43,802 nucleotides of DNA from Singulisphaera sp. GP187 (GTDB taxonomy: Bacteria; Planctomycetota; Phycisphaerae; Phycisphaerales; SM1A02), in contig CAMBMO010000020.1 of the NCBI GenBank assembly GCA_945868805.1, positions 1 to 43,802 of the forward strand. Reading direction: 5' to 3'. Numbering within the stretch: position 1 is the first letter of the stretch; each line of letters opens with the position of its first letter. Made by a program: the position numbers and the translations under genes. Below the pieces are notes generated by a model, which made no database searches, was not told the origin of the DNA, and was given only the letters and a program-made list of their open reading frames with translations. This document shows, one piece after another, positions 10,593 through 15,922 of the stretch.

Positions 10593-12380
10593 GTGCGCGC
10601 CCGTCGAACCGATTTCGCAATTCTTTTCACGTTGCTCGGAATCCTCGGGTTTTTCTTGGTGCTTCCGATCTGGTATTCCGTTCATGGCGCGCTCCATGAT
10701 TCGAGTGGTTGGACGACATTTCACATCATCGATGTCTTTCGAGACCCGCAACTGCGACTCGGTCTCTGGAACGCGCTCGCGATCGGGTTGTTGACGACGA
10801 TCATCGCGTCGGTTGTCGCGATCCCCATGGCTGTCGTCTCAGCCCGCTGTTCATTCGCTGGGAAGGGATTCCTGAACGCTGCGCTTTTGGCGCCACTCAT
10901 TCTGCCCCCATTCGTCGGTGCCATCGGTGTCGAGGCCATCATCGGGCGAACCGGAAGTCTCAATGTGATTCTCATGAATCTCGGGGTGATCTCGACGCCG
11001 ATCGACTTTCTGCTCGACGGCGGATTCCTGTGCATTGTCGTTCTTCAGGGGCTCCACCTCTATCCGATTCTCTACTTGAATCTGCTCGCTTCGCTGGCGA
11101 ACATCGACCCCGCGCTCGAAGAGGCGGCGCGCAATGTTGGCGCGGGTCCGTGGCGCCGATTCGCGAGTATCACGCTTCCACTCCTTCGTCCTGGTTTCTT
11201 CGCCGGAGCGACGATTGTCTTCGTCTGGAGCTTTACCGAACTGGGTACGCCTCTCATGTTTGGGTTCCGAACCGTGACCAGCGTGCAGATTTTCGATGGA
11301 CTGAAGGAAATCGAATCGTCGAGGCAACCCTACGCCCTGACGGTTGTGATGTTCGTCGTGGCGACAGGCATCTATCTGATCGGGAGATCGACGCTTGGAC
11401 GCTCCAAGGGGACCGCGTCGACGAAAGCCTCTGTTCGTCGAGTGGAAGCCGTGCTGGGCTGGAGAGGAACGATTGGCGCATGGGCGTTGCTTGGTGGCAT
11501 CGCGTTCGTCGCTTGCCTTCCGCACATCGGGGTCGTGCTCTCGGCACTCAGCGTTCCGGGGAGCTGGTACGAGTCGGTGCTTCCGCAGGCTTGGACACTC
11601 GACAACTTCGCAAACGCTTTGCAGCACCCGCTCGCCGCAGGGGCGATCCGAAACTCACTCTTTCTCGCCGGGTTTGCAGTCGTGCTTGATCTGATTCTCG
11701 GTGTCGCGGCGGCGCGCATTCTCGTTCGGACGAAGCTTCCACTGCGATGGTTGCTGGACATCTTGGTGATGCTTCCGATCGCCGTGCCTGGACTGGTGCT
11801 GGCGTTTGGGTTTGTCTCGATGAGTCTCGAATGGCCATTCGCTTCGACGGCACCGGCGTGGCTCGGCTGGATGAGCGTTCTCATGCCGACCTCGTGGTGG
11901 GAGTGGGTTTCAAACGCTCCTCTGGCATCCTGGGGCAACATCGTCGGAGCCGAGCCGAATCCCTTCCCATTTCTGATCATCGCATATGCGATACGGCGAC
12001 TCCCGTATGTCGTGCGATCCACTGTCGCTGGGTTGGAGCAAACGCCCGTCGACTTGGAGGAAGCCGCCGCGAGCGCTGGAGCGAAACCCGGTCGAATCAT
12101 GCGCAAGATTGTCGTACCCCTCGTTGCCGCGAACATGATCGCGGGTGCGCTGCTGGCATTCAGTCTCTCGATGCTCGAAGTTTCCGATTCGCTCCTGCTG
12201 GCTCAACGAGAGGGCGACTTCCCGGTGACGAAGGCGATCTACACACTGTTCGATCGCCTCGGAGATGGTCCTGCTATCGCAAGCGCGTTGGGAACCTGGG
12301 CGATGCTTTTGCTCGCCGCAACGCTCATGGCCGCGAGTTCGTTGCTTGGCAAACGGCTCGGGGCGGTCTTCCGCGGATAG
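10593..12380 (+). CDS. ABC transporter permease, two-domain (FbpB/ThiP-like, iron(III)/thiamine class)
   Basis: A 595-aa inner-membrane protein made of two fused permease halves, each with about six membrane segments. Both halves carry the EAA loop that contacts the ATPase: EEAARNVGAGPWRRFASITL near residue 180 and EEAAASAGAKPGRIMRKIVV near residue 505. Fused permeases of this type serve iron(III), thiamine or similar small-solute importers; the substrate cannot be told here because no ATPase or binding-protein gene is adjacent. GTG start at 10593, 12 nt after the preceding stop, with no Shine-Dalgarno; TAACCT lies 9 nt upstream. Only 37 nt separate it from nuoD. Confidence 0.88.
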   Translation: MRARRTDFAILFTLLGILGFFLVLPIWYSVHGALHDSSGWTTFHIIDVFRDPQLRLGLWNALAIGLLTTIIASVVAIPMAVVSARCSFAGKGFLNAALLAPLILPPFVGAIGVEAIIGRTGSLNVILMNLGVISTPIDFLLDGGFLCIVVLQGLHLYPILYLNLLASLANIDPALEEAARNVGAGPWRRFASITLPLLRPGFFAGATIVFVWSFTELGTPLMFGFRTVTSVQIFDGLKEIESSRQPYALTVVMFVVATGIYLIGRSTLGRSKGTASTKASVRRVEAVLGWRGTIGAWALLGGIAFVACLPHIGVVLSALSVPGSWYESVLPQAWTLDNFANALQHPLAAGAIRNSLFLAGFAVVLDLILGVAAARILVRTKLPLRWLLDILVMLPIAVPGLVLAFGFVSMSLEWPFASTAPAWLGWMSVLMPTSWWEWVSNAPLASWGNIVGAEPNPFPFLIIAYAIRRLPYVVRSTVAGLEQTPVDLEEAAASAGAKPGRIMRKIVVPLVAANMIAGALLAFSLSMLEVSDSLLLAQREGDFPVTKAIYTLFDRLGDGPAIASALGTWAMLLLAATLMAASSLLGKRLGAVFRG

Positions 12381-12402
12381 CGGTGCCCGTCCTGCGATTT
12401 CC

Positions 12403-12408
12403 TATACT
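12403..12408 (+). promoter_or_regulatory. -10-like element before nuoD
   Basis: TATACT, five of six bases of the consensus, ends 9 nt before the nuoD ATG; no Shine-Dalgarno is present. No good -35 is visible. Confidence 0.4.
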
Positions 12409-12417
12409 CATCCGACC

Positions 12418-13737
12418 ATGCCGTTCACTCTGCAGCCCGACGAAGGTTACGGGCTCGATATCGAGACTACTGAGTATCTGAAGGATCACTTTCAATCTCC
12501 AGATCGTTGGATTCTGAATTTCGGTCCGCAGCATCCTGCAACGCACACGACACTGCGACTGGTCCTCGAACTCGACGGGGAACGGATCGCGCGTGCGACT
12601 CCGCACATCGGATACCTGCACTCGGGTTTCGAAAAACTCGGAGAGCATCACGACTATAACCAGTATGTCTGCACGATCAGCCGTATGGACTACGCATCGC
12701 CGATCTGTAACGATGTTGCTTGGCACTCTGCCGTCGAGACACTCTTCGACGTTGGTCTCACACCGCGTTGCAAGGTGATCCGCACGATCATGGCCGAGTT
12801 GGGTCGCATCCAGAATCATTTGCTCTGCGTCGGCGCAGCTGGTTTGGATCTCGGCGCATTCACTGGCTTTCTGTATGGCTTCAACGAGCGCGAATTCATC
12901 TATGACATCCTCGACTATGTCACCGGGCAGCGATTCCATCCCGATTGGACGCGCGTTGGTGGAGCCTGGCGAGACATTCCCGACGACGAAGTCTTTATTC
13001 GCATGGTTCGGGAGTTCATCGATGTTCGCATGCCGAAGGCGATTGGCGACATCGAGACTCTGCTGAACCGCAATCGAATTTTCGTTGATCGAGTCGAGGG
13101 CGTCGGCGCGATCTCGATGGAAGATGCGATCGCATGGGGAGCGACCGGGCCGATCGCGCGGGCGTCAGGGGTGAAGCGAGATGCGCGCAAGGACGATCCC
13201 TATCTCTGCTTCGCGCCGAATTGGGACGGCGAGGGCGCGGAGGCCGTGAAATTCAATGTTCCAATTGCGACGACCGGCGATTGCCTTGCGAGATACCACG
13301 TTCGTCTCGAAGAATTGCGCCAGTCCAGCTCGATCATCCGCCAGCTGATCGATCGGATTCCAAAGGGACCGATCGACGCGACGGCCAACGGCAGTGCCAC
13401 GGCGAAAGATTCCAAAGCCCAAAAGGTTCGACTACCCGAGAAGGGGGATGTCTACGGTTCGATCGAAGGGACGATCCAACAGTTTGAGCTGATGATGCAC
13501 AATCGCGGCTGGAAGACCCCCATCGGCGAGGCGTACGGAGGGATCGAAGGTCCCAACGGAGAACTCGGATATCTCATTGTTGCCGATGGAGGTCGTTGCC
13601 CTTGGCGAGTCCGAGTGCGACCACCCATTTTTTATAATTTTCAGTTGTTCCCTAAATTGATCGAGGGACACCAACTCGCCGATGCGGTCGCTGTTTTGGG
13701 ATCTCTCAACATCATCGCCGCGGAGCTTGATCGCTAG
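12418..13737 (+). CDS. nuoD: NADH-quinone oxidoreductase subunit D
   Basis: A 439-aa 49-kDa-type subunit of respiratory complex I, located at the junction of the peripheral and membrane arms beside the quinone pocket. Visible signatures are FGPQHPATHTTLRLVLELDG at the N-terminus, HIGYLHSGFEKL, IMAELGRIQNHLL, and the C-terminal end GSLNIIAAELDR, where most homologues read GSLDIVLGEIDR-like. A variable insert (residues about 325-340, TANGSATAKDSKAQK) lies before the C-terminal part. It is followed 24 nt later by nuoE. The nuoA, B, C and G-N genes are not in the window, so the complex is encoded in split clusters. Confidence 0.96.
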   Translation: MPFTLQPDEGYGLDIETTEYLKDHFQSPDRWILNFGPQHPATHTTLRLVLELDGERIARATPHIGYLHSGFEKLGEHHDYNQYVCTISRMDYASPICNDVAWHSAVETLFDVGLTPRCKVIRTIMAELGRIQNHLLCVGAAGLDLGAFTGFLYGFNEREFIYDILDYVTGQRFHPDWTRVGGAWRDIPDDEVFIRMVREFIDVRMPKAIGDIETLLNRNRIFVDRVEGVGAISMEDAIAWGATGPIARASGVKRDARKDDPYLCFAPNWDGEGAEAVKFNVPIATTGDCLARYHVRLEELRQSSSIIRQLIDRIPKGPIDATANGSATAKDSKAQKVRLPEKGDVYGSIEGTIQQFELMMHNRGWKTPIGEAYGGIEGPNGELGYLIVADGGRCPWRVRVRPPIFYNFQLFPKLIEGHQLADAVAVLGSLNIIAAELDR

Positions 13738-13761: not shown

Positions 13762-14325
13762 ATGTCTTGGAAGACGAAACAATCCGGCACGATGGATGTG
13801 CCAAAGAGAAGCGAGCCCTATTGCACGGCGAAGATGCTGGAGCACTGGAAGTCCGTCATTCTGCCTCGATACGCCACGACGCATGGCGCGCTCATGCCGA
13901 TCTTGCACGATGTTCAGCATGAATACCGACACATTCCTTACCAGGCGATGATCGAGATCGCGACTTTTCTTAAGATCGCGCCATCCGAAGTTCTCGATAC
14001 GGTCTCGTTCTATGAGGAGTACACGACGAAACCCGTTGGGAAGTGCGTCATCGGTGTCTGCCATACGTTTGCCTGCGAAATTTGTGGGCATCAAGCGATC
14101 GTGGATCGCGTTCGGGCTCGACTCGGGATTGAACCACACGAAACCACCGCCGATGGTGCATTCACTCTGCTGACGATGGAGTGTCTCGGTTCGTGCGATA
14201 CCGCACCAGTGGCATTGTTCAACGAAACATTGCACGAGAAGCTCACGGTCGAAAAGGTCGATCAGTTGATCGACGAAGCATTGAAAGTCATGTCGCAACC
14301 CGCGAAGGCGACTCCACACCCATGA
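13762..14325 (+). CDS. nuoE: NADH-quinone oxidoreductase subunit E (24 kDa, 2Fe-2S)
   Basis: A 187-aa thioredoxin-fold subunit of the NADH-input module. The [2Fe-2S] ligands are clear: C100 and C105 (GVCHTFACEICG), C141 and C145 (MECLGSCDTAP). The N-terminal helical part (ALMPILHDVQHEYRHIP) is typical. Shine-Dalgarno GGAG lies 8 nt before the ATG. Its TGA overlaps the ATG of an 85-aa ORF (ATGA), and that ORF in turn overlaps nuoF, so the three are translationally coupled. Confidence 0.96.
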   Translation: MSWKTKQSGTMDVPKRSEPYCTAKMLEHWKSVILPRYATTHGALMPILHDVQHEYRHIPYQAMIEIATFLKIAPSEVLDTVSFYEEYTTKPVGKCVIGVCHTFACEICGHQAIVDRVRARLGIEPHETTADGAFTLLTMECLGSCDTAPVALFNETLHEKLTVEKVDQLIDEALKVMSQPAKATPHP

Positions 14326-14579
14326 ACCAGCCGAATGCGCAATCCAAACCCACGAGCCTCGCGCGGTCCTGTGGCGAGTGCGTCGGCCACATTCTCAAGG
14401 CCATCCGTACTCCTGCGGAGCGTCCTAGAGTCGCTCCACTGCCTGAATGTGATGTGCGCACCGTTGGCGCTGCGATCCGCGAAGAGAGAGTCGGGGATGT
14501 ACTCCACCGCCGAATCGTCATCGATCAAGTCGTCGCGGTCGATCCTGCTGTGCCACTCGGTCTGGACCCAATCTCATGA
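14322..14579 (+). CDS. Small protein of unknown function encoded between nuoE and nuoF
   Basis: An 85-aa ORF I do not recognise. It overlaps nuoE upstream by four bases (ATGA at 14322-14325) and nuoF downstream by four bases (ATGA at 14576-14579), which is strong evidence that it is translated. It has a CGEC motif near residue 17 (SLARSCGECVGHILKAIR), a Pro-rich middle (ERPRVAPLPECDVRTVG) and a C-terminal segment of alternating hydrophobic residues (VLHRRIVIDQVVAVDPAV). There is no signal peptide or membrane helix. Its position suggests a link to assembly or function of the NADH module; this is inference. Confidence 0.7.
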   Translation: MNQPNAQSKPTSLARSCGECVGHILKAIRTPAERPRVAPLPECDVRTVGAAIREERVGDVLHRRIVIDQVVAVDPAVPLGLDPIS

Positions 14580-15922
14580 AGCTCTCAGAACCCATCCTTA
14601 CCCAACGCATTCCGTCATTTCCGCATGGCGATCCGAAGAATCGTCACATCGTCGGCTACGACGAATTCGTCAAGACGGCCGGCTACAAGGGACTCGAGCG
14701 CGCTCTCGACATGGAATCAGCTCAGGTTGTCGCTCTCGTGAAAGATGCGGTCCTGCGCGGTCGTGGCGGTGCGGGGTTTCCGGCGGGGCTGAAGTGGTCG
14801 TTTCTCCCGCCAGTGGATGGGAAGGGGTTGCGGTACCTCTGCATCAACTGCGATGAGGCAGAGCCTGGAACATTCAAAGATCGACTGCTGGTCGATTTTG
14901 ATCCGCACTTGGTTCTCGAGGGCATCGCAATCGCCTGCTGGGCGTGCCAGCTCGACGTCGCCTACTTCTTCATCCGAGGCGAATACCACCATCAGGCAAA
15001 GGTGATGGAGCGTGCGATCGAAGAGGCGTACGCCGCCGGGATCTTTGGCGCGCAGGGGATCATGCGTGGCAAGGTCAAACACTCGGTCGAGTGCTATGTC
15101 CACCGAAGCGCTGGTGCGTATATCTGCGGGGAAGAGACTGGATTGTTGGAAGCACTTGAAGGCAAGCGTGGCTGGCCACGCGTGAAGCCACCATTTCCCG
15201 CTGTCAAGGGAGTCTTTGGTCGCCCAACGATTGTCAACAATGTCGAGACACTTGCCGCAGTTCCGGACATCGTGCTGCGCGGAGTCCCGTGGTGGAAATC
15301 GATCGGAGTTGAAAGTTCCTTCGGAGGGATGCCTTCGTATGGGACCAAATTGATGGGAGTCTCTGGTCATGTCGAGCGTCCCGGATGCTTCGAAGCTCCG
15401 CTGGGAATTCCACTCAGCACACTCGTCAACGAATACTCGGGTGGCATGCGCGGCGGAAAGAAATTCAAGGGTGCGATCGCGGGTGGAGTGTCGATGGGCG
15501 TGCTCGGAACCGATCAGTTCGATGCGGCGATGGACTTCGAGATCGGTCGTCGATGCGATGTCCTCGGTTTAGGGACGGCATGCCCGACCATCTTCGACGA
15601 GGACACGGACATGGTCGCGGTTGCACTCAATTGCGCGCGCTTCTTCATGAACGAGTCGTGCGGTCAGTGCACACCCTGTCGTGAGGGTTCGGGGTGGATC
15701 TTCAAGCTCCTGACGCGGATCCAGCAAGGTGACGCCACGACGAAAGATCTGGATCTGCTTCTAGAACTTGCCGCATCCATGGGGCTCAACGAAGGAACGA
15801 CGATCTGCGGTCTGGCCGACGGCAACAACTGGCTGGTGCGAACCATCGTGACCAAATTCCGCACAGAGTTCGAGCGGCGCGTGAAGCCGAAGTTCATTCC
15901 GTTGCATCTCGCCGCCCGTTGA
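14576..15922 (+). CDS. nuoF: NADH-quinone oxidoreductase subunit F (51 kDa, FMN and 4Fe-4S)
   Basis: A 448-aa subunit that oxidises NADH and passes electrons via FMN to the iron-sulfur chain. The FMN/NADH-binding glycine-rich motif GRGGAGFPAGLKW is at 62-74, the second conserved block AYICGEETGLLEALEGKRG at about 181-199, and the 4Fe-4S ligands are C362, C365, C368 (ESCGQCTPCREG) and C411. Length is normal. The start overlaps the preceding small ORF by ATGA; the stop overlaps a TTG start of ybeY (TTGA). Confidence 0.97.
   Translation: MKLSEPILTQRIPSFPHGDPKNRHIVGYDEFVKTAGYKGLERALDMESAQVVALVKDAVLRGRGGAGFPAGLKWSFLPPVDGKGLRYLCINCDEAEPGTFKDRLLVDFDPHLVLEGIAIACWACQLDVAYFFIRGEYHHQAKVMERAIEEAYAAGIFGAQGIMRGKVKHSVECYVHRSAGAYICGEETGLLEALEGKRGWPRVKPPFPAVKGVFGRPTIVNNVETLAAVPDIVLRGVPWWKSIGVESSFGGMPSYGTKLMGVSGHVERPGCFEAPLGIPLSTLVNEYSGGMRGGKKFKGAIAGGVSMGVLGTDQFDAAMDFEIGRRCDVLGLGTACPTIFDEDTDMVAVALNCARFFMNESCGQCTPCREGSGWIFKLLTRIQQGDATTKDLDLLLELAASMGLNEGTTICGLADGNNWLVRTIVTKFRTEFERRVKPKFIPLHLAAR

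Follow-up and report, generated by a model that had tools for sequence, protein, structure and literature searches.

The small open reading frame at positions 14322-14579 of the window (the whole 43,802-nucleotide stretch of Singulisphaera sp. GP187 DNA analyzed here) is a real gene, referred to below as X, and it belongs to a family that is apparently undescribed. Our best explanation of its function, held tentatively and at slightly less than an even chance, is that Phycisphaerales-type planctomycetes use X as a lineage-specific, non-essential accessory of complex I, in whose NADH-oxidising (N) module it would bind NuoE and NuoF.

Gene X at the nuoE-nuoF locus

The order of genes at the locus is nuoD, nuoE, X, nuoF, ybeY and then a CorC/HlyC-type gene, the first four lying on the + strand. 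The frame containing nuoD spans 12265-13737 (PF00346, residues 195-490), its true start probably lying downstream of 12265, and is followed by nuoE at 13762-14325 (PF01257, E 4.4e-47). Gene X, identified by its homologues and by selection, encodes 85 aa, beginning with ATG at 14322 and ending with TGA at 14577-14579, and nuoF occupies 14576-15922 (PF01512, E 4.4e-44, and PF10589; NF010120 above its cut-off and TIGR01959 below). An overlap by ATGA with each neighbor, described in an earlier note on this DNA, was borne out: the nuoE stop and the X start share 14322-14325, and the X stop shares 14576-14579 with the nuoF start at 14576. Among 74 named relatives with an assigned X start, overlaps of this kind (-4) occurred at the first joint in 21 and at the second in nine, while five had the double ATGA seen in the window. 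We also observed six identical letters, CATGAA, at both joints (14321-14326 and 14575-14580); a deletion between the two copies would yield a nuoE-nuoF ATGA joint of the kind found at loci without X.

Distribution of the family and selection on its frame

When the window protein was searched against 61 genomes (the window's own and those of 60 relatives), most of the genus yielded clear homologues and the wider family weaker ones; numerous matches near E 1 are chance. In these relatives the homologous frames are open and occupy the corresponding position, in most cases with nuoE on one side and nuoF on the other. With a cut-off of E 1e-4, a profile built from 58 of 92 non-redundant X sequences (profile A2) detected X in 279 of the 300 genomes sampled from the order, taken to be Phycisphaerales from the titles of the named loci; the count rises to 281 with G190 and G705, in which X was recognised by eye after nuoE. 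In a class sample of 248 genomes (E 0.01), X was present in 51 of the 56 genomes of the order (52 with G190) and in 16 of the 21 genomes of f11, a family of the same class. Elsewhere in the class, three of 171 genomes matched at E 0.004-0.008, and we judged these, by E-value alone, to be chance. A phylum sample of 342 genomes gave just two matches outside the class, both likewise judged chance and rejected: the weak match in G314 falls inside a protein that reads as pyridoxamine-phosphate-oxidase-like, and that in G406 sits in a low-complexity frame.

Pooled over 18 pairs, which were hand-picked for moderate dS among the pairs listed, with no row reused and some pairs sharing a clade, dN/dS was 0.29 for X, 0.09 for nuoE and 0.04 for nuoF, so that X evolves faster than its neighbors. 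Within X, values from these pairs were 0.17 for the helix and 0.11 for the hairpin motif (bounds set by simple sequence patterns) against 0.38 for the remainder. Shifting the frame raised dN/dS to 1.3 and 1.8 in the same pairs, which places purifying selection in the X frame only, and differences at codon positions 1, 2 and 3 numbered 162, 111 and 340 (1469 codons). The closest pair, L098-L103, gave an X dN/dS of 1.97 from very few changes, and many distant pairs gave values near or above 1; in such pairs the linker and tail outweigh the rest and dS cannot be relied on. Because of the dN/dS values, the shifted frames and the codon-position differences, we conclude that the product of X is a protein and that its two conserved segments are its most constrained parts.

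High GC content does produce many chance frames (97 open reading frames of 60 aa or more overlap a stretch of 12 kb), and X could in principle be one of these or a spacer that merely couples translation. A chance frame was nevertheless rejected, purifying selection being seen in the X frame with the shifted frames at about 1.3 or higher; with an order-wide family and retention of X when unlinked also against it, the idea that X is not a gene is next to impossible. That X is translated, as the earlier note argued, is supported by the existence of a family, by selection confined to its frame and by conservation of the gene order.

Linkage to nuoE and nuoF

A NuoF scan of a public genome set yielded 262 loci, of which the best 80 were used; the titles of all 80 are metagenome-assembled or uncultured, and some of their labels (Phycisphaerales, Phycisphaerae, Planctomycetota, Planctomycetia and others) are plainly loose. 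L066, with nuoE past the contig end, was left out, and in 76 of the 79 loci with nuoE visible (among these best 80 of 262) X lies between nuoE and nuoF. Since X in L127 and L133 is present without an ATG, GTG or TTG start, start and stop distances come from 74 loci. In the class sample, where coordinates were read by eye and some genomes are also in the named set, X lies between nuoE and nuoF in all 30 X-bearing order genomes in which these two are kept together. Another 21 X-bearing order genomes have nuoE and nuoF at least 3 kb apart or on different contigs; here X is less than 100 nt from nuoE in six, less than 0.5 kb from nuoE in two, less than 100 nt from nuoF in one, and less than 3 kb from one or the other in a further four; in the remaining eight, six of them from one genus, X is unlinked yet kept. 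The position between nuoE and nuoF recurs in families f1, f5, f6 and f11, and in 14 of the 16 X-bearing f11 genomes a distance of about 1.5 kb or less separates X from nuoE or nuoF.

Two local arrangements were also observed. In genus g20 of family f2 (L150-L155), nuoE, X and nuoF are scattered in all six class-sample genomes; in L152, and by eye in L155, the end of a pfkB-type sugar kinase gene overlaps with X. At five of the nine f11 loci read (L141, L142, L143, L145 and L148), an additional gene, 203-236 codons long and carrying an HCxxGxxRTG-type phosphatase motif, stands between nuoE and X. The one of these five checked, that of L142, matched PTP-NADK among other DSP-PTPase models in Pfam; a hydrophobic stretch at the N-terminus was read in four of the five.

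Genomes without X and genomes without complex I genes

At the three named loci (of 79) that lack X, nuoE and nuoF are joined directly, stop to start, by an ATGA overlap. The earlier note had held that its reading would be refuted by relatives with no frame here, or with frame-breaking changes at neutral rates; relatives of the first kind do exist, but their joints are clean and no decayed frames were seen. Twelve genomes have nuoE and nuoF without detected X (G005, G007, G015, G041, G045, G609, G625, G634, G706, G721, G739 and G768); one further X-less genome of the order sample stands outside this list. Such calls used a profile over whole genomes and a local profile around nuoE only, so that a diverged X elsewhere could escape; G645 and G793, cut by contig ends at nuoE, were left out. 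A relocated X was rejected in G005, where the best weak matches gave no X-like frame, and in G015, where the weak match falls inside a protein that reads as dehydrogenase-like. On a NuoF tree of 104 rows, obtained by a quick search and with many weak forks, the fewest changes of X state numbered four. Because several lineages have kept complex I and yet have no X, X does not belong to the core of the enzyme.

We also searched for NuoE and NuoF columns whose residues track the absence of X and found no clean signal. NuoE Q61A is common to the three X-less kin and also occurs in X-bearing kin (L008 and L063) and in three f11 rows, and the changes E127Q and Y37F likewise occur in X-bearing rows. 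The X-less set, whose rows are related, carried eight NuoE/NuoF changes against a pseudo-set mean of 3.1 (0 of 400 as high); its three recurrent columns, subject to the same relatedness, were matched by 4.75% of pseudo-sets. Given this relatedness, we base no conclusion on either count.

Among 237 order genomes, all but four had NuoF at E 1e-60. Three of these four (G011, G156 and G615) lack X, and the fourth, G687, has X at E 1.9e-12 in a 92% complete assembly of 150 contigs in which NuoF was not found. X is therefore missing from 3 of 4 NuoF-less versus 13 of 233 NuoF-bearing genomes (Fisher p 0.001, phylogeny and linkage within the nuo cluster ignored; p 0.0006, phylogeny again ignored, if G190 and G705 are counted as X-bearing). 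NuoD is absent from G011 and G156, and in G011, from the window's genus, a single cluster deletion could remove everything. One genome counted among the 13, G026, lacks NuoD as well as X and has weaker NuoF-like matches only; G786, which lies outside the 237, lacks NuoE, NuoF and X. G011, G156 and G615 are 95-97% complete, and their lack of a detectable NuoF suggests an apparent loss of complex I.

The X-bearing, NuoF-less G687 and the eight f2 genomes that keep X at unlinked places would be natural if X were a passenger, one that only happens to lie in the operon while its function has nothing to do with complex I. We consider this improbable, given the position of X between nuoE and nuoF in four families, its distance of less than 3 kb from one of these genes in 13 of the 21 order genomes that have them apart, and its absence from three of the four NuoF-less genomes.

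Anatomy and predicted structure

The consensus of the family consists of S-L-x-R-x-L-G-x-F-x-G-H-I, a variable linker and V-x-L-R-R-T-T-I-D-E-V; the N-terminus takes a W-F form in families f5 and f6 and a W-L-G-R-Q form in f11. In the window protein, AlphaFold2 predicted a helix at residues 13-29 (14358-14408, + strand), which coincides with the first conserved segment in the alignment and is amphipathic by its helical moment, and a beta-hairpin at residues 45-57 and 60-71 (14454-14534, + strand), which contains RRIVIDQ where the family consensus is LRRTTIDEV (pLDDT 78.5, pTM 0.34). For a second member, L118, a helix at 9-25 and a hairpin at 32-44 and 49-60 were predicted (pLDDT 78.3, pTM 0.35), the two input alignments holding 69 and 49 of 75 sequences, partly common to both. 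X is thus predicted to comprise an amphipathic helix, a linker, the LRRTTIDEV hairpin and a loose tail. The low pTM leaves the mutual placement of these elements unpredicted, and would be in keeping with folding upon contact with a partner.

The helix has a median moment of 0.59 versus 0.32 when shuffled (95th percentile of shuffles 0.48), and this strong amphipathicity, together with the W/F-rich N-terminal helix of families f5, f6 and f11 and the phosphatase-like gene between nuoE and X at five of nine f11 loci, would be expected if X were an adapter or regulator whose helix binds the membrane or another protein, linking NADH oxidation to another process, and whose tail is an interaction site. 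However, helices that pack against proteins are likewise amphipathic, the helix differs in net charge among members, and the lipid-binding discriminant is below its threshold of 0.68 in 26 of 139 sequences. Such a role therefore strikes us as quite improbable.

The motif CGEC (residues 17-20 of the window protein), which the earlier note had taken as a clue to function, does not serve as one. Of 139 family sequences, a set in which some genes appear twice, 10 contain CGxC; these belong without exception to the window or its close kin, and three are second copies from a contig already represented. With CxxC in 10 of 139 and no cysteine at all in 77 of 139, a metal or redox site was rejected; CGEC is a local peculiarity of the window's closest kin.

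Comparison with known proteins and proposed function

The Pfam scan that named NuoE and NuoF gave no match for the window protein, and neither 21 nor 58 members of the family produced a credible Pfam match (best E 0.022, from a single member). Weak matches of single members were all that NCBIfam (best E 0.0056) and PHROGs (best E 0.0009) returned. The X profile had no credible match among all PDB chains (best E 0.4 and 1.1), and Foldseek with the X model, a weak test at a pTM of 0.34, found nothing useful (best E 2.1). No description of such a gene was found in the literature searched. NuoE and NuoF, core subunits of the N module, share with X a gene cluster and overlapping stop and start codons, but differ from it in being recognised by Pfam.

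The earlier note's suggestion that X could be an additional subunit of the NADH module, or a factor in its assembly, is still the reading we favor on the grounds of linkage and distribution, although the argument from CGEC fails. In the accessory role that we prefer, the joined frames of nuoE, X and nuoF would probably be translated together. The product would most likely bind the NuoE/NuoF pair through the conserved amphipathic helix and the LRRTTIDEV hairpin, with the linker and tail staying loose, and may stabilise or tune the N module without being essential. Consistent with this are the linkage of X to nuo genes, its largely shared distribution with them, its two short conserved segments, its dispensability, and the prediction of helix and hairpin in two different members; G687 and the unlinked X in 8 of 21 genomes count against it. 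The association with complex I is thus one suggested by linkage and distribution.

Linkage and distribution would be equally expected of an assembly factor, i.e., a transient chaperone that aids the folding of NuoE/NuoF, their uptake of FMN or iron-sulphur clusters, or their docking, and then leaves the enzyme. Dispensability and a rate of evolution above that of NuoE/NuoF would also suit such a factor, but X has neither a conserved cysteine or other evident cofactor motif nor a credible match to a described family (Pfam, NCBIfam, PDB), and we regard this role as rather unlikely. We place more belief, though somewhat less than in an accessory as such, in a narrower form of our preferred explanation: that the X family, Phycisphaerales-wide and in one further family, is a stoichiometric subunit of complex I seated on NuoE/NuoF, with a role like that of NDUFV3, an independent origin and several losses.

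NDUFV3 is represented in both Pfam and the PDB, and Nqo15 counts with Nqo16 among the accessory subunits of Thermus complex I. NDUFV3 is a small, vertebrate-restricted protein of one helix, coils and a disordered part that sits in the cleft between NDUFV1 and NDUFV2, its loss causing mild, minor defects (PMC8762328). Since NDUFV1 and NDUFV2 are the counterparts of NuoF and NuoE, NDUFV3 would be nearest to X in role, X presumably binding the same pair. In contrast to NDUFV3, X has a predicted hairpin and no credible match to any Pfam model or PDB chain; by these sequence tests X is not a relative of NDUFV3, and the likeness would be one of role only. Nqo16 of Thermus complex I is a lineage-specific bacterial accessory subunit (PMC8762328), which resembles X in being an extra small protein confined to one bacterial lineage. 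Nqo16, however, wedges among the counterparts of NDUFS1, NDUFS3 and NDUFS7, and X is without a credible sequence or fold match to PDB chains.

Complex I ranks with the best-studied enzymes of respiration, and in bacteria it is usually viewed as 13-14 core subunits with few extras. If X is indeed such a subunit, bacteria too would evolve accessories at the electron-entry end of complex I, and this one would have been retained by most of an order. The window's genus contains closely related species of both kinds, some with X and others lacking it, which makes the effect of X directly testable.
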